Positions 5,801 to 28,910 of a stretch of DNA of 64,000 nt are shown piece by piece (position 1 is the first letter of the stretch; every line of letters begins with the position of its first letter). The DNA comes from Colletotrichum lupini (lineage: Eukaryota; Ascomycota; Sordariomycetes; Glomerellales; Glomerellaceae): positions 4,712,001 to 4,776,000 of the forward strand of contig NC_064677.1 of assembly GCF_023278565.1 (NCBI RefSeq). Direction: 5' to 3'. Below the pieces are notes generated by a model. That model saw nothing but the letters and a program-made list of their open reading frames with translations, made no database searches and was not told where the DNA came from. Position numbers and translations under genes: made by a program.

Positions 5801-6411
5801 AATTGACCCCATATCGAAGTTGTCGGGCTGACAATTGAGGTGATTAGGCGCAGTGATTGAATAGTGAGACTCGGAAGAGAGAGCTTTTCGAGGTGAGGTG
5901 TGCGACATGTGCGGGCACGGGCAGTCAGAATCAGATGGGAAAGGAAGGACGGGAGGAACGAGACAGCGGGTACGGAGTACGTATCCGAGGTTCCTTCCAT
6001 TAGCTCAGGTACGTTACACGTAGCGTTGTACTGGTCGGTAAAGTACGTTTCCACCTCACCTCAAACAGTCGGGCAGGTCGCCATCGAAATGGAGAATGGG
6101 AAAGTGTGCAGTGGTGCCCGGTACCTGCGGCGCCGGAGCAAAACTGGTGCCTGACTTGGGTACCGTTGGCCTGGACACCTCAGATGCAAGGCGTTCAAGG
6201 CAACCAAGTACATACACACAGTAGTTGTGGCTTGTACCGATGTACACATTTTCAGGGCGTCAAAGCTTCGAGCTGCAGCTCCGAGCTTCTCCTTCCCAAG
6301 TTCACCCCATGTCAAATCTCCACTTCCCATCCCCCAGACTAGTCCTCTTCGGGGCGGAATAAACAAACGGAATATCCACTGCTGGTTTGATGCAGGAGAC
6401 GGGGGCCAATG
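2810..6411. other. Intergenic region between RQC2 and hex1
   Basis: No convincing gene is seen in these 3.6 kb. Reading frames here are short or lack ATG starts, have no recognisable domains and show no third-position C bias. The segment nearest 2810 must hold the RQC2 promoter. The segment above about 5.9 kb turns pyrimidine- and ACA-rich towards the hex1 leader. Confidence 0.5.
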
Positions 6412-7194
6412 TCAACATTCCCTCACAACACACGGCGCACTTTGACCACCTCTCTTGCTGGGAATTACTCGTCTTTCTCACTATTATCCGTACCTTGCCA
6501 TTTCTGCCATTCTGCAGGCATCTTCCTCATCTCTCACCCTCGCACACCATCCATCACAACTTGAACCCACATCAGACAGAACACAGACTCTCGGTTGGTC
6601 TCTCCTCTCTCCTCTCACATCTTTTGATATCTTTCTCGCAGAAAACGAGACACACTCGATCTAATCCTGTCCAATCCAGATCATCCAACCCGCCTCCTCC
6701 GCATCCACTCCCAGCCGTCCATCCACCCACAAAGACACTGATCCCAGTCTCCAGTCCCACTTGGATCCAAGATACCAGTCCAGAGTCTCAAGAGGACACA
6801 CTCGCACACTCTCACACACAACAGACAGTCAGACACACAACAGACACACGCTCACAACATTTCACCCCTTGCCCCGGCAACCCTTCGCAACCCTCGTTTT
6901 CTGCAGGACTGCATTCGCTCGCCGCTTGCTCTGCTGCTCGGTCCAACCATCACCCCCCAAACCCCCCGTCTTCAAAACCCAATCCGCATCGCACATCTCC
7001 AACGACCCTCTTCTCCCTCCTTCTTCTCTCCTCTCCATCCATCTTCAAAGCTTCAATCGCCCTTTTTGCCCAACTTCACCCTTCTGTCGGCACACCCCCT
7101 TTCCTCCAAATCCAAAAGAGAAGAGAAAAGCAGAAGCGCGTGTCACTCGAACGACCGGCTTCTTCCACCTTTTTCTTCCCCTTTGTTTTTCTAG
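6412..7194 (+). promoter_or_regulatory. Pyrimidine-rich, ATG-free leader/promoter of hex1
   Basis: Very C/T- and CA-rich sequence with no ATG in any plus-strand frame from 6412 to 7639. CT-rich leaders are common before strongly expressed filamentous-fungal genes. A polypyrimidine stretch ending in CTAG at 7194, and another ending in TTCAG at 7240, would both make good 3' splice sites. A 5'-leader intron ending there is therefore possible. The transcription start cannot be placed from sequence alone. Confidence 0.5.
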
Positions 7195-7284
7195 GAAAAC
7201 GAAGCAAGAGGATACTCTTCTTTGCCTTCCTCACTTCAGGAACGCTTAGAAGATTCTCCTCTCTGCGCCCCCAGAGCCGCCAAT

Positions 7285-8601
7285 CTGGATTTTGAAGCTC
7301 GTGTCCCCGTCCCCTTTAGCGTCTTTCCCTCCACCTACAAGGAGAGTGAGACACAAACCCAGACCCAAACAGTCACTCAGACACATCAAGAGCTTGAGAT
7401 CAAACTTCCCGAGAAGAAGCCCAACAAGCCCGGACGGGAGGAAAGTCAATACTCTTCCTTCACCACCATCGCCGAGTCGAAGCCGCAGCCGCCGCAGCAG
7501 CAAAAGCCGCAGCAGCAGCAGCAGCCTCTTCCCCCTCGGAAAGAGCAGCACCGCTACGAAGAAGAGGTCCGCATCGAAGAACACTACCACCGTCCCGGTG
7601 TCCACTACGAGTCCCACAACTACCGTGAGGAGTACCGGTATGTTTTGGTCTTTCTCTATCCGTTCTCTGTCTATCTGTCCATCACTCTCTCTTCCTCTCT
7701 CTGCCCAACCCTCTCTCTCTCTACCTGCGGCCGGATGTGCCCATGACAGCTTATGTATGGCATGGCATCGATCGATTCATCCAGCCCCCTCACTCCCGCT
7801 TCCCTCTTCCCATGCAACCTCAAAACAACACATACCCACTCGCGTCACTCCGGTCACCGCCCCTTCTCCTCCCCTTGGCAACCGTCTCTCACCTACCTAC
7901 CCATCTTCCTCCTCCTTCTTCCACACACCCCTACCTCTCCTCCCACTGGGCACCCCGGCTCGGGACCGCTTCAGCTCGGGCCCCGGTATTTCGCCAAATT
8001 TCCCTCCTTGCCCATTACGAGCCGCCAGTCATGGACCCTGGACGCCTCCTCCCGGCCCCCCTAGTCCCATGTTGGCCAAGTAACCACTTGTCACGTCAAA
8101 TATGTCAACCGGAGCGAAAAAGCTTCCCCATCAAGCTCCCCCATCAAAACATCAACTGACTTCTCTCTTCTTTTCCTTCTATCCAGCCCTGCCCCTCCCG
8201 CTCCTGCTCCTGCTCCCTCTCAATACACCACTCAGCAAGAGTTCCACGACACTCGCATCCACCACCACGACACTCGCGTTGAGATCGACACCCGTCACCA
8301 CGAGCACCTGGTAAACCCGATTGATAAAATCGAACGCCAGTACCGTCAACGCTTCCAGCCTACCTACCACAAGGAGGAAGTCACCGTCGAGACCTACCCG
8401 GCTCCTCACCACCACCACCACCACCACTCTCACTCCGACCACCACTCGGATCACCACTCCCACCACCAGCACTCCCACGTCGACGAGTACACCGTCGAGT
8501 CTGAGCGCCCCCGTCCTCAGCAGTACAAGGAAACCATCACGGTTACCGAAGAGACCATCGAGCCTACTCACGTCTCCAAGCCCCAACACAAGTCTTCCAA
8601 G
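7285..8601 (+). CDS. N-terminal extension in frame with HEX-1, no AUG (candidate CTG start at 7285)
   Basis: The frame is open from 7195 through a 549-nt intron (7638-8186, GTATGT...CCAG) to the HEX-1 ATG at 8602. It has a strong third-position C bias in exon 2, so it looks translated. The peptide is rich in Gln, His, Glu and Pro, with short charged repeats (EEVRIEEHYHRP, HDTRIHHHDTRVEIDTR), a run of seven His and an ETQTQTQT stretch. Neither exon contains an ATG in any frame. The in-frame CTG at 7285 has A at -3 and G at +4, preceded by GCCGCC, a good context for near-cognate initiation; a TTG at 7222 is an alternative. From CTG 7285 the full protein would be about 469 residues. The other explanation is an upstream exon supplying an ATG before 6412. 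The frame is clear, but the start is inference. Confidence 0.6.
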
Positions 8602-9432
8602 ATGGGTTACTACGACGACGATGGTAAGTCGAGAAATCCCCCTCCCCAGTGCTCTGCTTGACCCCCTTTTGTGCGTGCGTGCGTGTGCTTGCTGGCTTGT
8701 CTGTCCGTCCAATGCTTGTTGGGCTTTGTGTGTCTGCGCGTGTGTGTGTTTTGGTTGCGCCGTTCGTCCCCCCAATCTATGGACCGACACTGAAGGGTGC
8801 TCGCACCACCAGGCCACTACCATTCTTTCCGTCAAGGCCTTCACAAGCTGGCGGACAAGATTGCTCACCCCCATCATCACCACCATCATCATCATGGTCA
8901 TGCTGACCGTTACGAAGTCTCCGAGGTTCGCGCCGCTTCCGCCCCCCGCCGCCAGTCTTCCGGCTCTGGCTCCGGTGCCCCTCGCATTCCCAACACCGTC
9001 ACCATCCCCTGCCACCACATCCGCCTCGGCGACTTCTTGATGCTCCAGGGCCGTCCCTGCCAGGTCATCAAGATCTCCACCTCCGCCGCCACCGGCCAGT
9101 ACCGCTACCTCGGTGTCGACCTCTTCACCAAGCAGCTCCACGAGGAGTCCTCCTTCATCGCCAACCCCGCCCCCAGCGTCGTTGTCCAGACCATGCTCGG
9201 CCCCGTCTTCAAGCAGTACCGCGTCCTCGACCTCTCCGATGGTCACGTCACTGCCATGACCGAGACCGGCGACGTCAAGCAGGGCCTGCCCGTCATTGAC
9301 CAGTCCGACCTCTGGTCCCGCCTCAACAACGCCTTCGAGTCCGGCCGTGGCTCCGTCCGCGTCCTTGTCCTCAACGATGCTGGCCGTGAGCTCGCCGTCG
9401 ACGTCAAGGTCATCCACGGCTCCCGTCTGTAA
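8602..9432 (+). CDS. hex1: HEX-1, Woronin body major protein
   Basis: HEX-1 self-assembles inside peroxisome-derived Woronin bodies, the dense-core organelles that plug septal pores after hyphal wounding. It is an ancient derivative of eIF5A. The short form starts at ATG 8602 (MGYYDDD, as in Neurospora HEX-1). Exon 1 is 8602-8623, the intron is 8624-8812 (189 nt, GTAAGT...CCAG), and exon 2 is 8813-9432, giving 213 residues. A His-rich linker (eight consecutive His) precedes the two-domain eIF5A-like core, with the conserved blocks TVTIPCHHIRLGDF, GRPCQVIKISTSAATGQ and LHEESSF. The C-terminal tripeptide SRL is the type-1 peroxisomal targeting signal. The same frame continues upstream without a stop, so a longer isoform sharing this body is likely. 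Confidence 0.96.
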
Positions 9433-18081: not shown

Positions 18082-18914
18082 TTTGCCATCTCGATGTACT
18101 TGGGAAATGATCACTGCATCCAATATCCCAACGCAACTAGGCTTAAAGAAGGTGATTCGGAACTCAGAGTTGCGGTACTTGTTCAGCTCGTCACATAGCT
18201 CGTCACACTGTGGTCGCGGCCTGGATGGAGTATGTCAAAGTCAGCGAAGGGACTCTCCGGGTGGCCAACTTCGATGGCGGTCAGCCACCTAACATCAAGG
18301 CATGTCTACTTTAACACCTTATATCGACCGTACGCTCTCATTATTACCCCGCAAATAACCAATGCTTGGTATTCAAGATTGAATGCGTATACTTTACGGA
18401 TAATTACGGCCGGTCAAGTAGAAAATAAAAGGTAACCACAGTAATTACCCCATAAGTGCCTTATCATTTTAAAGTGCGTGAGGCGATTCGTGACTGTAAG
18501 GTAGTTTGATCTGTGGGAAGTAGTTGAGACAACGACTAATGAGACAGGACGAAGAATTCCCGTGATCATCTCAGCAAACGTAAAGAAAACACACTGGCGG
18601 AGTCGAGATTTCTCGCATCGACAAACGAGCTCTCTCCGAGACTGTAGCTGGGGCCGGGTATGGAGGCGCAAGTTGCCCGCGTATCCATAGATCCTGGTGC
18701 AGTGGACACACTCGAGCTTTATCCGAGGAGAGGAAGCGAATCATCATCAAGATTACCTCGTATGCCAACATTGTAATGGAATCCGCAGTCGTTGTCGATA
18801 TCGAAGAGCAGAAGGAGGTCGAAATGTTCAAAGCAAGCTAGCAGATCGCTTATAAGTAAAGGTAGAGCCCTTGGTAGCGAATCTACAGTTCGTAACTGTT
18901 GAGAAACGTGAAAT
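18082..18914. other. 3' flank of member C up to the retrotransposon
   Basis: Contains two blocks (18505-18515 and 18564-18580) found again in the same order and at the same spacing downstream of member D (31107-31181). A plus-strand frame ending at 18841 looks weakly coding but has no start and no recognisable domain. Confidence 0.4.
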
Positions 18915-18919
18915 ATAAG
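18915..18919. repeat. Left target-site duplication (ATAAG)
   Basis: Five bases repeated exactly at 28911-28915, bracketing the whole retrotransposon. Confidence 0.8.
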
Positions 18920-19124
18920 TATCGGATTGGAAGTCTAATTTGACCGCGGCATATAGCCGACTACGCAGGGGCTAATTAGGGGCCCTATTTATAATTATTA
19001 TAGCTAGCCTAACTTACGGTTAGAACCTCTTTTTTATACTTATTACGTAAATATTTATATAGTTTAATTAATCTCTTCGTTAACTATAGTTCGAACTAAC
19101 TATTTTATAATAGGGATATTAATA
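18920..19124 (+). repeat. LTR copy 1 (5' LTR)
   Basis: 205 bp, starting TATCGGATTGG and ending GGGATATTAATA. This copy keeps more G and C at its start than the other two, so it is the least mutated there. Confidence 0.88.
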
Positions 19125-21659
19125 CTAATTAGTAATTAAATTCTATTATTATAGATCGGTAAGGTATTTTGTTATATAAAAAAGACGACCTTTTAATATT
19201 ATATAGGATAAGAGATTTATACTAATTAACCTTATAGAAATTAACGAAAAAAGAGGTAATTCTTAAATACCGCACGGAATTAAGTAATCGTAGCCCTTTA
19301 TTATTTATAAGAGGTCGACGTTTATTATATTAAACTACGTTAATTAATAGAACTATTTAAATAACTAGCCTTTTACCGTTACTCTAAGTAGCTTTTTTAT
19401 TAAATAACTTTTTTATAGCTAGCCCGTAATTAAAAATTAATTAGTTAAATTAGTAAAAAGAAATACTTATATAACGACTACTTACCTAATTAATTAATAT
19501 AACGAACGAGCTTAATAATATAATCTAAAAAAGTACCGTGCGATTAAAAAAGGGGATTTTTAAATATAAATATTCTTACTTAGTAATAAAGGTAACCCTA
19601 TAAGAGTTATTAAGCTAAGAGATTTATAATATATAAAAAAGTCTATTATTACGAGGATTTTATAAGTATAATTTTAAGCCTATAATCTAAATAACTTCTT
19701 TATAACTCTTTTAACTACCCCCCGGGTATTATTTAGGAATATAATATAAAAAATAGTCTAAAAAAAAAAAGGGATTTAGAGGTCCTAATAATATCGAATT
19801 AAGAGTATTACGGACCTTGGAGATTAATTTAAAAAAAAAAGTAGCTATTCTAAAATAATCCTACAACCTCCCGCTAGAGTTATTATTAACCTAAAAAAAG
19901 GCTAAAAAGATAAAGATTTAAAAAGAAAAAAAAAATCCTTTAGAAAGCTACTAAAAAGCTTCTTTTTATACTAGCTCCCGGTATAAGATTATTAATTTTA
20001 AAAAATTAACCAAGTAATAAAAGGGATTATTAATAAATAATAATTACTTAACTATAATTAAGTTACGAAAAAAACTACTTAAAAAATATAAAATAGGGTA
20101 CCGAGAGGTTATAAAAAATAAGATTTTTAAGGTATTTAACCTTATTATATATAAATAATAAGTAGGTATTTTTAATAAGTCTTTAAAATTTATAATTTTA
20201 TAAAAAAGAGGGCTTAATTTCGTTAACTATACTTAACGGCTTATACGGTTCTTAATAGCTTATATAGCTCCTTTACGAGCTACTTAGCGTTTATTTTTAA
20301 TTATTTTTATAAAATACTACTTTAAAAGAGGTAAGTTAAAAAAAGAAGCTATTTAGAAATTATAAAAAATACGAGGCTTAAGAAGTTAGAAATATATAGG
20401 ATAGCGGAAATCGGTAACTAATAAAGATCCTAAGATTAATTACTATATCTTCTTATAATAATATAAACGTCTATTATTATTATTATAAAAAGGAATTATT
20501 AAAACCTACCCTTTTATATTAAATAAAAAAGAGGATTTTAATAAGTATAATAACTAGCGATTTAAAAGGGTAGTAATAATTATTAAAAATAATAAAAACG
20601 AGAGTAGTAATAAGACGGTAAGAGAAAGCGGGAATCTCTTAGATTTTAATAAATTCGTTAAGTAATAAAAGTACGGATTTATTATAATTAGCGCGCGGAT
20701 TAGATATATCCTTATTAAAATTAAATACGTTAATAATTACTAATATAAGTATAAGTTAGAGTACGACCCTTAGCGAGTTAAGGTAAAAAAGAAGAGGATA
20801 AAACCCGATTTTAAATAGAATCTTAATCCCTTATAAGTAAGTAAATATTAACCCGGATTATTAGGGGACGTAGATATATAGAATTGCGGATTAGCTTAAT
20901 AATAAGTAAATTAATATAATATTAATCTATTTAACTAAGGTTTATAAAAAAAAGGGGTTATAGGGGTAACCCCTATTTTATAAGATCGTAAATAACCTTA
21001 GTTATTAGCTAAACGAATAGTTCGTAAGCGTAAGCTTAAGAATTATAAAAGTAGTTAATAAATTCCTTTATAGGCGAGGGGTATTACTAGCGTAATTATA
21101 ATTACGAGAGCTATATAAAATACTAATAGTAATAATTATAAAAGAGGAATTCGTACTATAGAACTAAGTATAAGTTAATAGAGCGTATAATCGTTTTAAC
21201 GAATTTAAAAAAAGGGTAAACAACTTAGATTTCCTTTTTATAATTACTAATAAAAATCTATTATTATAAAAGGATATACCGGGGCAAAATATAGTACTAA
21301 AAGTATAATAATTAATAATTCTACTTATTTCGATCTATAACTTATTACCGCTACTAATATAAAATTTAGCACCGATTAGCTAATAAAAAAAGAGGTAAAC
21401 GACCCGAAGTTATTAATAATACGTAGTAACGTAGGGATCGTATATAAATACTAAAAATTTAATAATAAATACGAGGTAATTTATAAACCTTAAAAAGATC
21501 TTTTTAAAAAAGAAATTATACTCTAGGGGGAAGTATAAGGTCTTATAAAAAACCCTAACGATATTTTATAATTATTATAAAAAAGTTAGAATTAGGGAAT
21601 ACTAATACTATTTAGTAATTAATATTCTAGCACGTATAGCTTTAACGAGGTAATGCGGG

Positions 21660-22140
21660 ATATTCTTATAAAGAATATAAAAAGTGAATATTCATATAGA
21701 AGCAAGAATATATGAATATAGGGGATATAAGCGTATATAAAAGAGGTTTTTGTAGTAAAGAGAGTAATATAGTTAAATTACTATATGAGAAGTTGCTTGC
21801 TTAACGAAAGGTCTAGGTAGGCAAATACACGCCTATATATAGGCATAAAAACCTCCTACTAGAATATTCCATTGCTTATTAATTATGATATAATTAATAA
21901 GCGTATACGTAAGTGAATGCGTAATCGTAGTACGTAATTCCGCCTCGAGTAAATTCCAGATTATTCAGTTACTTTCCAGTACTTTCCATTGCTCACGTAA
22001 GCTTATATAAGCAGTATTGCTTACATAATCAATACCTATAATAATCTACAGAAATCGTAGATTAATATGGTATATAGTTTGCTTACGTAATATTGATAAT
22101 AAGGCGAATAATAAGGTAAACAAAGTTACCTTCGTAACAA
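21660..22140. mobile_element. Non-RIPped island inside the element, possible later insertion (solo LTR or MITE)
   Basis: About 450-480 bp rich in CpA and TpG, unlike the flanking DNA. On the minus strand it would begin TGTTACGAAGGTAAC and carry a TATA-like stretch (cctatatataggc). The opposite edge has a related inverted sequence (gatattcttataaag against gatatttgttacgaag). It has no coding frame. The boundaries are approximate. Confidence 0.5.
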
Positions 22141-24802
22141 ATATCGTACTCGTAAGTAAAGCCTCTAATTATTATTATAAAGTAGTACGTAATCTCGATT
22201 AAAACGACTTTTTTAATATAATTAACGTAATCCGAAGCCGCTTCGAGACTTATAATAAGAACTTAGAGCTCTTATCTAAGCTATAAGCGATTTTTTTTAT
22301 ATTTATAGCTAGGATAATAGAGGGTAAATTATAAGTAAAGATCTTTAAAAAGCTTATTAATCGAATCGATAAGCTAGTAAAAACCTAGCTAAATAAGGGG
22401 ATAAATAAGTAAAAAGTTAGATATTTTTATACTATAGTTTAGCGTATATTAAAAGTAAAAATAACCTTATACTAAGTACTTAAAGACTACGAGACGCTCT
22501 ACTCGAGGCTAAGATCTAGCTTTAATATTAAAATAAAAATGCTATACTAAACCTATTTCTAAGTATATAATAGCCCTTATTAATAATATTAAATTAATTA
22601 AATATATAATAAAAAAAGAAAAGAGGCTAAATACGGTAATTATTAATAAGGAGGCCTAGATTTGTTAAATAAGTAGAGATTTAATTTATAGGTAGGGTAA
22701 TAGAAGAGGTAATACTATATTTATAAAAAAAAAAGATATTAGTTAAGTAATTACTCTAAGGAAGAGCGTATTAAATTATATAAATAATATAAAAAGTTAA
22801 GGGTAGTAAATAGTAAAACTAGCCCTCGTTAGTTTAATTAATTCCTTGTTATATATAAGGGTAAATCTGGGGGTACGGAACTTAATAACGGTAGCTAAAG
22901 TAGCGGTTTAAAGTATATACCCTTTATAAAAGATTCGGAAAATAAGGAAGATCTTACCCCCTATATTAACGAATTAGATTATAACAAAATTAATAATATT
23001 AACTACTCTTTTTTTACCTTATTAGCCTCTAGAGGATATATAAAGCTAAACGAATAGAGGGTAATAAAAGCTTTTAATAAGTAGGCTTTTATTTATAAAT
23101 AATAAGGGAAAGTCCCTTAGATAATAAATACGGAGGCGGCCAAAAGGGCGAATTTAATAGGGCCGAAGCCTATTTTTTTAATAATTAAAAAGAAGACGCT
23201 ATTTTTCTTAATATTTAAAAAGAAAGAATATAGTACTAAATAAATCTAAGGGTAGCTAGAGGGGTCCTTTTTATATTACTTAGATCCCTCGAATACTAAG
23301 CTCGTATAAGTATTTTATATAAGTAAAAAGTACGGCCTAGATAATTTCTATAAGATTATCCTAAATATTAAGGTATTATAATAGTTAACTAGAGGAAAAG
23401 GGTAATTCTAAGCGCTATAAAAGATCGCGTTAGTAATACTTAATACGTTAATAATAAGTATTATAAAAATTAGTTTTAGCTTAGGTAAGGAAATCGTCGC
23501 CCTAAGTATAGTAAAAATAAAAATATACTTCGGAACGATAACTTTTTATATTTTACTTATTAATACCCTATTTCTCTTATATTTAAAAAATATAGATCGA
23601 CTAGATATTATATTTAATAATACGAGGAATAGAATCTTTAGTAATAAGTACTTTAAGATAATCGAACGATAATAAGAGTATATATTTATAAAGCTTATTA
23701 ATAATACGAAGTTAATTAATTACTTAATAAAAAGTAAGCTTAGAAAACTATACTAGTGATTTGGGTACCCGTTAGTTACGAGGCTATATAACTTTTTAAA
23801 ATAATTAAATAATAATAATATCAAAATAGGGGCGTTAGAGTAGTTAATAAAAGTATATTATTAATACTAAATAAATGCGCAGAGCCTACGTAAATTTAAG
23901 TTTAAATTGCGTAATAAGCTTAACTTTAACTAGGAAATCGTCGTTAATATCTTTTACTTAAATAGTCGGCTAGTACTATATATAATCGACGTAACTATAT
24001 CTTTCTAAATAAGGCAATTCTTTTAGGATCTATAAATAAAAATAGTATAAGTAGCCTTACGAAAAAGCTAGATTAATATATACTAAGGACCGCTAAACGG
24101 TATTAGAACTAATGCTAGTACTAGCTTTAAGTTAATAGAATTTAGGGATAATACGACGGCTTATAGTATATAGCTAAAAGTCGTACCCGTTAAAGCGTAC
24201 TATAGTATTAAAAAGGTAAAAAGGGCATATTAATAGTTAAAAAGGGCGTTTAAAATTATTAAAAAGGAAAATCCGGATTCTATTAATAACGAATACCTCT
24301 AAATAGTACTTAAATACTATAATAATACTATAGGGCCTAACGGACTTATACTAACGCTATTAATATTTAGAGTATATTTAAAAACGACCTTAGCCTCGTT
24401 ACTATTACTAAGTATAAGCTAACGAGCCCGAGTAGTTAAAAAAGTAATACGGGTATTACGTAAGGTAAGCATAAGAAGGTAAGTTAATAAGGTAATTATT
24501 ATACGTAATAAGCCCGATATAAAGAGTAATCTAAATATACTACTAAATTTAAATATATAAATATAATACGAAATTACCTAATAGTAGGCTAGGTTATATA
24601 AATTAATTTCTATTAACGAGCGCTCTTATATAGTTATAAGAAATCGTAACTAGCTACTTAAAATATTAATTATAATAATTAAACCGTATTATATAGATCC
24701 TAACGAGGTAATTTCTAACCTATAAAAAAAAGAAGAGCTAAGGGAAACTATATAACCCGTAGTAAAGGTATAGGAAATTATCCTTAATAAAATCGTCGTA
24801 AT

Positions 24803-26856
24803 AATATTAATAGATAATAAAAAAGAGGAAATTACTAAAAGGGCACTAATACTACTAATAAGACGTCGCAAAAGACTACGATAATAAGCCCTAACGTAGC
24901 AATTTATTACTAACAACGAGGTAATTAACACTTTTTATATAAAAAAAAAAAAAGCTAATTTCGAGCTAGTAATTAAACTACGTAAAGAAAATATAATTAT
25001 AACTATTAAAAAGCCGTATAAAAGATTAGATCTTATTAAAATAAACACTCTTCGTAATTAAGGGGTCTATCGATTTATCTTATATAACCTAAAAAAACAT
25101 ATAAACCTCCGCATATTTAAATTACGAATAGTTCGTAAAATTAAAAAGAAAAAAACACCCTAGCTATATAAGAAATCTAAATACGTAATTTAGGGGTATA
25201 ATAACGTTAAAAAAGTAACGCTACTTATATAATCGCCCACTATATAGCGCTATAACTAACGATTAATAATAGTACTAATAGTATTATTATAAAAAAAGGA
25301 ATACGAGATTTAGAGCCGTAATATTACCTAGGCCTATACCTAATCGGCCATAGGGCTTATAAAAAAAATCCTAGCCTATTTACTAAAAGAAATAGCTAGT
25401 AAGTACTTAGAAAGTACGATTATTAAAGTACTTAAGCTACTATATAGGCTCGTAAAATTGGGTACTTATTAGTAAGCTACTTACTACGATTTTTATATTA
25501 ATTAATTATTAATAGTTATTTCTATATATAACCCGTATTTACTAGTTACGGAGTACGAAAACGACTAATTTAGGATTATTAAAATATAAACCGATAATAT
25601 ATTAAGCCTATTTAATATTAATTTTATAAAAAAAGAGGATAAGGAGCTTTAAAAAGCAAGCTTCGTAATAAAGCTAAAAAAGGTCCTTATAATAAATACC
25701 CCCTTAGTATTTAATAGCGGGATTTTTATAATTAAAAAGGAAACCGTCGTTTTTTAGTAAAAGGGGTAGGGTAAGAAGATTAACCTTATTAATCCGAATA
25801 TAATTAACGTTAAAAAGCGGTATAAGGCTAAGCTCGCATAAGGGGTATATATTATAAGTATTTATTAGCCCGAGGTAATTTTTAATTATATTAAAGTAGT
25901 ATAAGCTATAGATCTAACCGAACGAGATATTAAAATACTTAATAAGTAGCTTAAGTAATAATAAACGAATCTCGATCGAAGTCTCGTTTATTACCTAATC
26001 GACTTTACGATTAATAAGCTCTACGTCTTTATTAATAAGTTATTTATAAATAATAACGACCTTATTTTATAATTAGGGTATATTATTATCCTAGTTAACG
26101 AGAGTATAGGTAAAAGTAAATTTATTATATATAATAATATAATCTATTACTTATTAATTAAAAATAAGCGGGTAATAAGAAGTATATTAATATTAGAGGT
26201 TTATAATATAGTTAACGGTATTAACCTCTCTTACGCGATTTTAATAACGCTAAAAAAGATTATTAATTAAATTAGCCTTTTACCTATTTTAATAATTATT
26301 TATACTAATTCTTATTTATTATACGAATACCTCGTTAAATTAGGAATAAAAAAAAAAGAAGCTTATAATTAATATTATAGCCTTTAAATAATCGTATAAA
26401 AAGCGCAAAATACTTAAGATCTGTTAGATTAATAATAAAAATAACCTCGTAAACGCTTTTATAAAAGTAGTACTAAATAAGGGATTAAAGTAATTCGTAA
26501 ATAGTAGAAAAGTTACTATACGAATAGAGGGATAGGTTATATAAAAAGAGTAAAAAAAAGAGAGAAAAAGAGACGACTTAATAAACGGGCCCGAGGTTAA
26601 ATTATACCTCTAACTATAATAGTTAAATTAATAAAAAAAAGAAAAAGTTAGTATTAAATTAGAAATCTAATTTAACTGCGGTATATAGCCGACTACGTAG
26701 GGGCTAATTAGGGGCCCTATTTATAATTATTATAGCTAGCCTAACCTATAGTTAGAACCTCCTTTTTATACTTACTACATAAATATTTATATAGTTTAAT
26801 TAATCTCTTCGTTAACTACGGTTCGAACTAACTACCTTATAATAGGGATACTAATA
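24803..26856 (+). repeat. Tandem duplication, unit 1 (RT/RNase H end of pol plus LTR 2)
   Basis: This unit repeats as 26857-28910 with a constant offset of 2,054 bp. It runs from the start of the reverse transcriptase region to the end of LTR 2. Differences between the units are mainly RIP-type transitions. Confidence 0.85.
26652..26856 (+). repeat. LTR copy 2
   Basis: 205 bp, aligned without gaps to the other two copies. It is preceded by a purine-rich tract (aaaaaaaagaaaaag), a likely polypurine tract. Confidence 0.88.
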
Positions 26857-28910
26857 AGTACTAATAGATAACGAAGAAGAGGAAATTACTAAAAGGGTAC
26901 TAATATTACTAATAAGATATTATAAAAGACTACGATAGTAAGCCCTAACGCGGTAATTTATTATTAATAACGAGGTAATTAATACTTTTTATATAGTAAA
27001 AGAGAAAGCCGATTTTGAGCTAGTAGTTAAATTACGTAAAAAAGGCGTAATTGTAATTATTAAAAAGCCGTATAGGGGTTAAATCTTATTAAAATAAATA
27101 CTCTTCGTAATTAAGGGGTCTATTGATTTATCTTATACGACTTAGAAAAATATATAAACCTCTATATATTTAAATTACGAATAGTTCGTGAGATTAAAAA
27201 GAAAGGAATACCCTAGTTATATAAGAAGTTTAAATACGTAATTTAAGGGTACGGTAATATTAAAAAAGCGACGCTATTTATATAATTACTTATTATATAG
27301 CGCTATAACTAACGATTAATAATAATACTAATAATATTACTATAAAAAAAGGGATATAAGATTTAGAGCCGTAATATTACCTAGGCCTATACCTAATTAG
27401 CTATAGGGCTTATAAAGAAAATCCTAGCCTATTTACTAAAAGAAATAGCTAATAAGTACTTAGAAAGTACGATTATTAAAGTACTTAAGCTATTATATAG
27501 GCTCGTAAAATCGGGCACTTATTAATAAGCTACTTATTACGATTTTTATATTAATTAATTATTAATAGTTATTTCTATATACGACCCGTGCTTATTAATT
27601 ATAGAATACGAAAGTAACTAATTTAGGATCGTTAAAATATAGACCGATAATATCTTAAGCCTATTTAATATTAACTTTATAAAAAAGGAGGATAAGGAGC
27701 TCTAAAAAGCGGGCTTTATAATAAAGCTAAAAAAAGTCCTTATAATAAATACCCCCCTAATATTTAACGACGGGATTTTTATAATTAAAAAGGAAACCGT
27801 TATTTTTTAATAAAAAGGGTAGGGTAAGAAGATTAACCTTATTAATTTAAATATAACTAATATTAAAAAATAATATAAAGCTAAGCTTGTGCGAGGGGTA
27901 TATATTATAAGTATTTATTAGCTTAAGGCGACTTTTAATTATATTAAGGTAATATAAGCTATAGATCTAACTAAACGAGACGTTAAGGTACTTAATAAGT
28001 AGCTTAAGTAATAAAAAATAAATCTTAATCGAGGTCTCGTTTATTACCTAATTAACTTTATAATTAATAAGCTCTACGTCTTTATTAATAAGTTATTTAT
28101 AAATAATAACGACCTTATTTTATAATTAGAGTATATTATTATCCTAGCTAATAAGAGTATAAATAAGAGCGAATTTATTATATATAATAATATAATCTAT
28201 TACTTATTAATTAAAAATAAGTAAATAACGAGAAGTATACTAATATCGGAGGTCTATAATATAGTTAACGGCGTTAACCTCTCTTATACAATTTTAATAA
28301 CGCTAAGGAAAATTACTAATTAAATTAGCCTTTTACTTATTTTAATAATTATTTATACCGATTCTTACTCGCTATATAAATACCTCGTTAAATTAAGAAC
28401 GATAAAAGAAAAGAAGCTTATAATTAATATTACAGCCCTTAAGTAATTATATAAAATGTATAAAATACTTAAGATCCGTTAGATTAATAATAAAAATAAC
28501 CTTATAAACGTTTTTCTAAAAATAATACTAAATAAGGGATTAGAGTAATTTATAAGTAGTAAAAAAGTTATTATATAAATAGAGGGATAGGTTATATAAA
28601 AAGAGTAAAGAAAAAGGGGAAAAGGAGACGACTTAATAAACGGGCTTAAGGTTAAATTATACCTCTAACTATAGCGGTTAAATTAATAAAAAAAAAGAAA
28701 GTTAGTATTAAATTAGAAGTCTAATTTAACCGCGGTATATAGCCGACTACGTAGGGGCTAATTAGGGGCCCTATTTATAATTATTATAGCTAGCCTAACT
28801 TATAATTAGAACCTCCTTTTTATACTTATTACGTAGATATTTATATAGTTTAATTAATCTCTTCGTTAACTACGGTTTGAACTAACTACCCTGTAATAGG
28901 GATACTAACA
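26857..28910 (+). repeat. Tandem duplication, unit 2 (RT/RNase H end of pol plus LTR 3)
   Basis: Second copy of the 2,054-bp unit. It ends with LTR 3 and the right end of the element. There is no 5' LTR or gag of its own, so it is not an independent full insertion. Confidence 0.85.
28706..28910 (+). repeat. LTR copy 3 (3' LTR)
   Basis: 205 bp, ending GGGATACTAACA. It is followed directly by the right target duplication ATAAG at 28911-28915. Confidence 0.88.

Follow-up and report, generated by a model that had tools for sequence, protein, structure and literature searches.

A putative CUG-initiated long form of the Woronin-body protein HEX-1 with a conserved, methionine-free N-terminal extension

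The stretch of DNA analysed here (the window) comprises 64,000 nucleotides of the Colletotrichum lupini genome and contains the gene for HEX-1, the self-assembling core of the Woronin body, preceded by a long reading frame that joins it in frame and lacks any AUG. The gene presents the hallmarks of canonical HEX-1, namely an MGYYDD start, the IF5A-like N and eIF-5a OB folds (assigned from Pfam on P0001, a 98% identical relative from C. scovillei) and a C-terminal peroxisomal targeting signal (PTS1). The HEX-1 body and each of the two extension exons have one match apiece in the 63.4 Mb genome, and a search of this genome, the window's own, returned no paralogues of the extension exons beyond the gene itself. 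The features of the locus are given below, GC3 denoting the GC content of third codon positions.

6412 to 7284, plus strand: AUG-free leader before the CTG, without near-cognate codons in strong context (sequence scan)
7192 to 7194, plus strand: TAG after a pyrimidine tract; it is the in-frame stop at which the open frame ends upstream, and it could serve as the 3' splice site of an intron in the leader
7195 to 7284, plus strand: open in-frame leader, not coding-like (GC3 0.40, from codon-position GC)
7285 to 7287, plus strand: CTG at which the long form is proposed to start (-3 A, +4 G)
7285 to 7341, plus strand: (L/M)DFEARVPVPFSVFPSTYK, the best-conserved block of the extension
7285 to 7637, plus strand: extension exon A, with no ATG in any frame
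7638 to 8186, plus strand: intron 1, GTATGT..CCAG
8187 to 8601, plus strand: extension exon B, with no ATG in any frame
8602 to 8604, plus strand: canonical HEX-1 AUG in strong context (A at -3, G at +4)
8605 to 8623, plus strand: GYYDDDG, which completes the first coding part of canonical HEX-1
8624 to 8812, plus strand: intron 2, the conserved intron following MGYYDDD (window sequence and the available part of PMC7762394)
8813 to 9432, plus strand: HEX-1 body, IF5A-like N and eIF-5a OB folds, with the stop at 9430
9421 to 9429, plus strand: SRL, the PTS1, common to both forms (window sequence and the available part of PMC7762394)

The original prediction held that the spliced sequence between 6412 and 8601 contains no ATG in any frame, and a scan of the 1641 nt concerned (6412-7637 and 8187-8601) bears this out, making the AUG at 8602 the first after 6412. 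A first-order Markov model of the same stretch yields a mean of 6.0 ATGs, and none in 0.3% of 2000 runs; under such a model the segment 6412-7194 alone is expected to hold 3.9 (P = 0.02 for none), and the absence of ATG from either extension exon taken singly is unremarkable (P = 0.34 and 0.38). Intron 1, unlike its flanking exons, holds 10 ATGs. Its boundaries are those originally proposed, and once introns 1 and 2 are removed the frame runs continuously through both extension exons into HEX-1. Of the two upstream ATGs named previously, the one at 6409 is correct and the one given as 6389 lies at 6390.

Counting CTG, GTG, TTG, ACG, ATC, ATT and ATA as near-cognates, and a purine at -3 with G at +4 as strong context, the segment 6412-7284 contains neither an ATG nor a strong-context near-cognate codon, and the CTG at 7285, which is in frame and does have the predicted -3 A and +4 G, is the first of its kind. 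Among Markov sequences for this segment, 1.2% were free of ATG and 6% free of strong-context near-cognates; both properties occurred together in 0 of 3000. Furthermore, codon-position GC indicates where coding begins. The frame had been described as open, continuous with HEX-1 and coding-biased from 7195; the first two properties hold, whereas the bias begins at 7285. GC at codon positions 1, 2 and 3 is.57/.57/.40 in 7195-7284, compared to.65/.36/.69 in 7285-7635 and.68/.42/.81 in HEX-1, and because the periodicity becomes coding-like only at 7285 the start of the coding part was moved there from 7195. A start at 7195 itself was rejected on its GC3 of 0.40 and on a short upstream word that relatives read in three frames (see below).

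Homologues were collected as the best 120 matches from each of three overlapping searches, one with the whole long form as query (935 matches) and two with its N-terminal part (209 and 210 matches), giving 301 distinct proteins. The motif (L)DFEARVPVPFS is present in 290 of the 301, although the 119 and 62 proteins added by the N-terminal queries carry it by selection; among the best 120 of the 935 matches to the whole long form it is found in 109. The N-terminal queries extended the matches to further classes. Loss of the frame in relatives had been named beforehand as evidence against a translated extension; the frame is instead conserved in at least six classes, as verified in the taxonomy of the hosts (Sordariomycetes, Leotiomycetes, Dothideomycetes, Eurotiomycetes, Lecanoromycetes and Geoglossomycetes).

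At the CTG position 285 of the 290 proteins have L and five have M (P0012, P0028, P0067, P0077 and P0105), and in all five the M is annotated as residue 1. By the NCBI rule for the standard code, such an annotated first Met may stand for CTG, TTG or ATG. The leucine codon of the relatives would presumably be CTG as well. At the DNA level, a search of viral contigs for related loci gave four pattern matches, none of which was confirmed, and a degenerate pattern of the motif had no match in viral or genome contigs. The residue before this position, available in 284 proteins, is N in 269, T in 12 and K, I and V in one each; since the codons of N, T, K and I all begin with A, position -3 carries A in 283 of these 284 proteins, whichever of the four residues is present. 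Likewise, the following residue is Asp in 290 of 290 under a search pattern that left this position free, which places G at +4 in every case; a pattern anchored only from +7 onwards brought in two extra proteins, neither of which fits.

An ungapped profile of 228 proteins locates a sharp boundary at the CTG. Information per residue amounts to 0.2-0.5 bits at -30 to -13 and then rises to 1.7 bits at -3, 2.6 at -2, 3.9 at -1 and 4.3 at position 0, remaining at 3.2-4.3 up to +18 (residues +1 to +10 belonged to the search pattern, the remaining positions did not). The conserved frame, the -3/+4 context and this boundary support the originally proposed near-cognate start of a long isoform by leaky scanning. 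Nine residues of the N-terminal block (D2, F3, A5, P8, P10, S12, F14, P15 and Y18) are invariant over 57 aligned rows, 56 of them distinct. This degree of protein-level conservation, together with the codon periodicity and a frame that stays open across the proteins read, argues against an untranslated extension, according to which the region would be a conserved regulatory leader and the long database proteins annotation errors. Such an account could draw on the available part of PMC7762394, which warns that inaccurate annotation might explain the predicted hypervariable N-terminal extensions of Hex1, and on the absence of six motif peptide strings from the open full texts searched. The hypervariability is, however, confined to the sequence preceding the motif, and judging from these data the caution would seem to apply to that sequence and not to what follows it; we consider an untranslated leader the least probable of the alternatives, and very improbable.

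The database models contradict one another at the 5' end of the gene. The window belongs to Colletotrichum of the acutatum group, and among the matches listed the closest long homologue is P0001 of C. scovillei (98% identity over 469 aa). The two C. lupini models, which outside gaps differ little from the long form of the window, in keeping with a C. lupini origin, disagree with each other: P0003 differs from the long form of the window by 2 mismatches and 22 gap positions over 469, and P0006 by 4 mismatches and 34 gap positions over 409, with the gaps of both lying where their splicing differs from that of the window. C. fioriniae is represented by three different 5' ends (P0002, P0004 and P0005). 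Comparing the segments upstream of the motif (87 segments of at least 20 residues), only 13 of 3741 pairs are similar at E 0.01, whereas similarity extends to 25,878 of 25,878 pairs when the 60 downstream residues are compared. In addition, 20 of the NCBI models read, all named partial, have a first residue other than Met that lies no more than 21 residues from the motif; a few of them are on short contigs, where they may be cut, and one, P0071, begins exactly at the motif Leu. In our reading, gene finders that demand an ATG attach differing upstream exons, and the databases thereby hide the long form.

These data bear directly on a more conventional explanation, in which splicing joins a short upstream exon with an ordinary AUG in frame to the extension, so that the gene would produce two transcripts rather than use two start codons on one. 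In most of the database models read, an upstream exon does supply the first Met. A good-looking 3' splice site is present at 7194, with the C. fructicola model P0019 using the matching place, and the ATG at 6390 is used in models P0001, P0004 and P0006. Set against this, the upstream segments are mostly unrelated and contradict each other within C. fioriniae and C. lupini, and the partial NCBI models, a few of which may be cut, begin close to the motif without Met. The metagenome proteins described next have no Met start either, and exclusion of Met from the extension would not be expected if scanning ribosomes never crossed it. We therefore regard an upstream coding exon as unlikely, though it is the strongest of the competing accounts.

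Eleven JGI metagenome homologues were listed, 10 of them on contigs of 1.5-2.4 kb. None of the 11 starts with Met, the first residue being L or V in each, and the 10 on short contigs continue past MGYYDD, where the window has intron 2, to a PTS1-like tail. We infer that these 10 contigs are spliced transcripts and that the initial L or V marks starts set by a bacterial gene caller (TTG or GTG, for lack of an in-frame ATG) rather than cut ends. Proteins from another source match some of these, with M replacing the first L (P0131 matching P0130 and P0132, and P0136 matching P0133). As a separate observation, P0130, P0131 and P0132 share the same start and diverge just after MGYYDED (into GGRDAAP or GRYHSFR), in agreement with the alternative splicing known for the intron that follows MGYYDD.

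The extension is almost devoid of methionine. Between the motif Leu and the Met of MGYYDD, 275 proteins, which are related by descent and so do not constitute independent tests, contain 3 Met in 63,017 residues, and 273 of the 275 have none. All three Met belong to P0136 and P0300, within inserts at the position of intron 1 that are absent from the compared relatives and are apparently products of mis-splicing. By comparison, the variable linker following MGYYDD contains 118 Met in 12,999 residues (0.9%, 231 proteins), and Trp and Cys are about as rare in the linker as in the extension. With Met as frequent as in the linker, chance alone would leave some 13% of arms of 220 residues without any. 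If both proteins are made from one mRNA, ribosomes that do not initiate at the CUG have to traverse the entire arm before they arrive at the HEX-1 AUG, and exclusion of Met is thus to be expected; the loss of Met fits selection that would let scanning ribosomes reach 8602, which is how the absence of ATG had originally been interpreted.

Upstream of the motif, a short word recurs in relatives. Among the 230 proteins with enough upstream sequence it reads HSRKD in 43, AFEK in 12 and GIRE in 5, with none of the three in 170, and it sits 11-14 codons before the start position (for instance in P0169, P0177 and P0122; it was not located in the window). HSRKD, AFEK and GIRE can be the three reading frames of a single short sequence, a pattern noticed post hoc from protein sequences, and both HSRKD and AFEK are present within Aspergillus. 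This suggests that what is conserved in the leader before the CTG is the RNA and not an encoded protein, and the word may be an RNA element of its own.

The word is pertinent to the possibility that the extension begins at a near-cognate codon further upstream, the CTG at 7285 being an internal leucine. The frame does remain open as far upstream as 7195, there is weak in-frame conservation at residues -12 to -4 (0.5-1.0 bits), and C. fructicola retains 24 of 30 residues of the window upstream of the CTG, against 28 of 30 downstream. Nevertheless, GC3 is 0.40 upstream and 0.69 downstream, the conservation step falls at the CTG, the upstream word is read in three frames across lineages, and 6412-7284 offers no other near-cognate codon in strong context, so that an earlier start appears improbable, and more so than the upstream exon.

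The partial conservation from -12 to -4 and the C. fructicola comparison count against initiation at the CTG, and they are joined by several further points. Conservation at the start position is seen as a Leu residue, with which any Leu codon in the relatives is compatible; P0167, with V before the L, departs from A at -3; and no Neurospora protein is among the homologues listed. A stem-loop 3' of the CTG that could raise its use was not convincing (z = -0.2, -0.6 and -1.9; in the best case, 8 of 200 shuffles). Annotation may also bias the Met count, as models that start at an internal Met lack the motif and escape it, although a chance account of the 273 Met-free arms would need about 1,760 uncounted Met-bearing proteins (273/0.134 - 273) against 935 matches in total. 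Finally, 15 proteins with the motif lack the usual MGYY anchor, and one of them, P0282, contains two Met at the place where its model leaves homologous sequence.

Taken together, these data lead us to propose, with a probability of roughly 80%, that HEX-1 is accompanied in at least six classes by a minor, CUG-started isoform (469 aa in the window) made by leaky scanning on a single mRNA. Ribosomes scanning from 6412 would encounter no AUG and no other strong-context near-cognate codon before the CUG at 7285, where a minority would initiate and produce a protein of 469 residues, composed of a Met-free, mostly disordered arm of 256 residues and the whole of HEX-1 (213 residues, including the PTS1). 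The remaining ribosomes would scan through the AUG-less arm and initiate at the AUG at 8602, yielding abundant HEX-1. Since the HEX-1 body and SRL are common to both forms, import through PTS1 and co-assembly of the long form are expected, and it would enter the Woronin-body lattice as a minor subunit displaying the conserved N-terminal peptide. What was observed here is how the sequence is laid out, that the protein is conserved, which bases stand at -3 and +4 and that Met is excluded; from this we infer the use of the CUG, the minor amount, the co-assembly and the displayed peptide. As a guess, this peptide could dock to a Woronin-body membrane protein or limit crystal growth.

The arm itself is predicted to be disordered apart from one helix. 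No domain above the Pfam cut-off was found in the extension of three relatives (P0001, P0108 and P0223), and a sub-threshold TGF_beta_GS match in P0001 falls in the linker. An AlphaFold2 model of P0012, computed from an alignment of 57 rows in which P0105 was entered twice, has a mean predicted local distance difference test score (pLDDT) of 57; the extension lies mostly below 50 except for a helix at 145-157, which covers the IDxxEREYRxRxQP block. Judged against the consensus, no PTS2 peroxisomal targeting signal was seen in the N-terminal peptide. In Fusarium, the extensions of P0298, P0300 and P0301 contain tandem units like EKTEINNFTVDGRSSQPQY, whose copy number differs among them.

Extensions initiated at non-AUG codons are already known in fungi. 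In Neurospora cpc-1, according to the available part of Ivanov et al. 2017 (PMC5487733), an N-terminal extension arises from near-cognate codons; as in HEX-1, it is in frame, free of stops and conserved in Pezizomycotina, its near-cognate start context has A at -3 and G at +4 (near-optimal in cpc-1), and some automated models include it without resolving its start. The two differ in that cpc-1, as described there, encodes a transcription factor and has AUG-initiated upstream open reading frames and several start codons, whereas in HEX-1 the leader is devoid of AUG, a single CUG stands in strong context, and the Met-free extension exceeds the main protein in length. The main text of PMC5487733 does not contain the terms hex-1, hex1, Woronin or NCU08332.

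A second case is the 6-phosphogluconate dehydrogenase gene pgd1 (Kremp et al. 2020, PMC7214817), for which the available part of the paper describes a non-AUG start that generates a longer peroxisomal isoform. As proposed for HEX-1, this is a fungal non-AUG start in a 5' leader giving an N-terminally longer protein, but in pgd1 the start is a tandem AGG AUU and the protein is relocated by a PTS2 that the extension supplies, while in HEX-1 PTS1 is already present in both forms and the extension spans 256 residues. Two HEX-1 proteins per gene have also been reported as splice isoforms: the available part of PMC7762394, in which HEX-1 is a 176-residue protein in Neurospora, describes isoforms of 188 and 209 residues in V. 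dahliae that arise from alternative use of the intron just after MGYYDD. These keep the usual N-terminus, whereas the long form proposed here adds 256 residues before it. No report of non-AUG initiation in HEX-1 was found in the open literature searched; as far as that search extends, the HEX-1 case is new, and an extension that is Met-free and longer than the main protein is unusual.

If the proposal is true, a second subunit about twice as long as HEX-1 has been overlooked under contradictory gene models, a conserved peptide may tether the crystal to a partner or restrict how far it grows, and the locus illustrates with unusual clarity how selection in nature can act against AUG throughout a translated leader. 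We also consider it reasonably likely that the HEX-1 mRNA is built for two proteins in most leotiomyceta, with a conserved CUG giving rise to a long subunit that has a Met-free disordered arm and a near-invariant N-terminal peptide, and with loss of AUG selected so that leaky scanning sets the long:short ratio in the crystal.

Elsewhere in the window, positions 18900-28900 comprise about 10 kb of roughly 75% A+T with long ATG-free stretches on both strands (4.3 and 2.8 kb on the plus strand; 2.7, 2.2 and 2.2 kb on the minus strand). This segment looks like an AT-rich repeat block, possibly mutated by repeat-induced point mutation (RIP).

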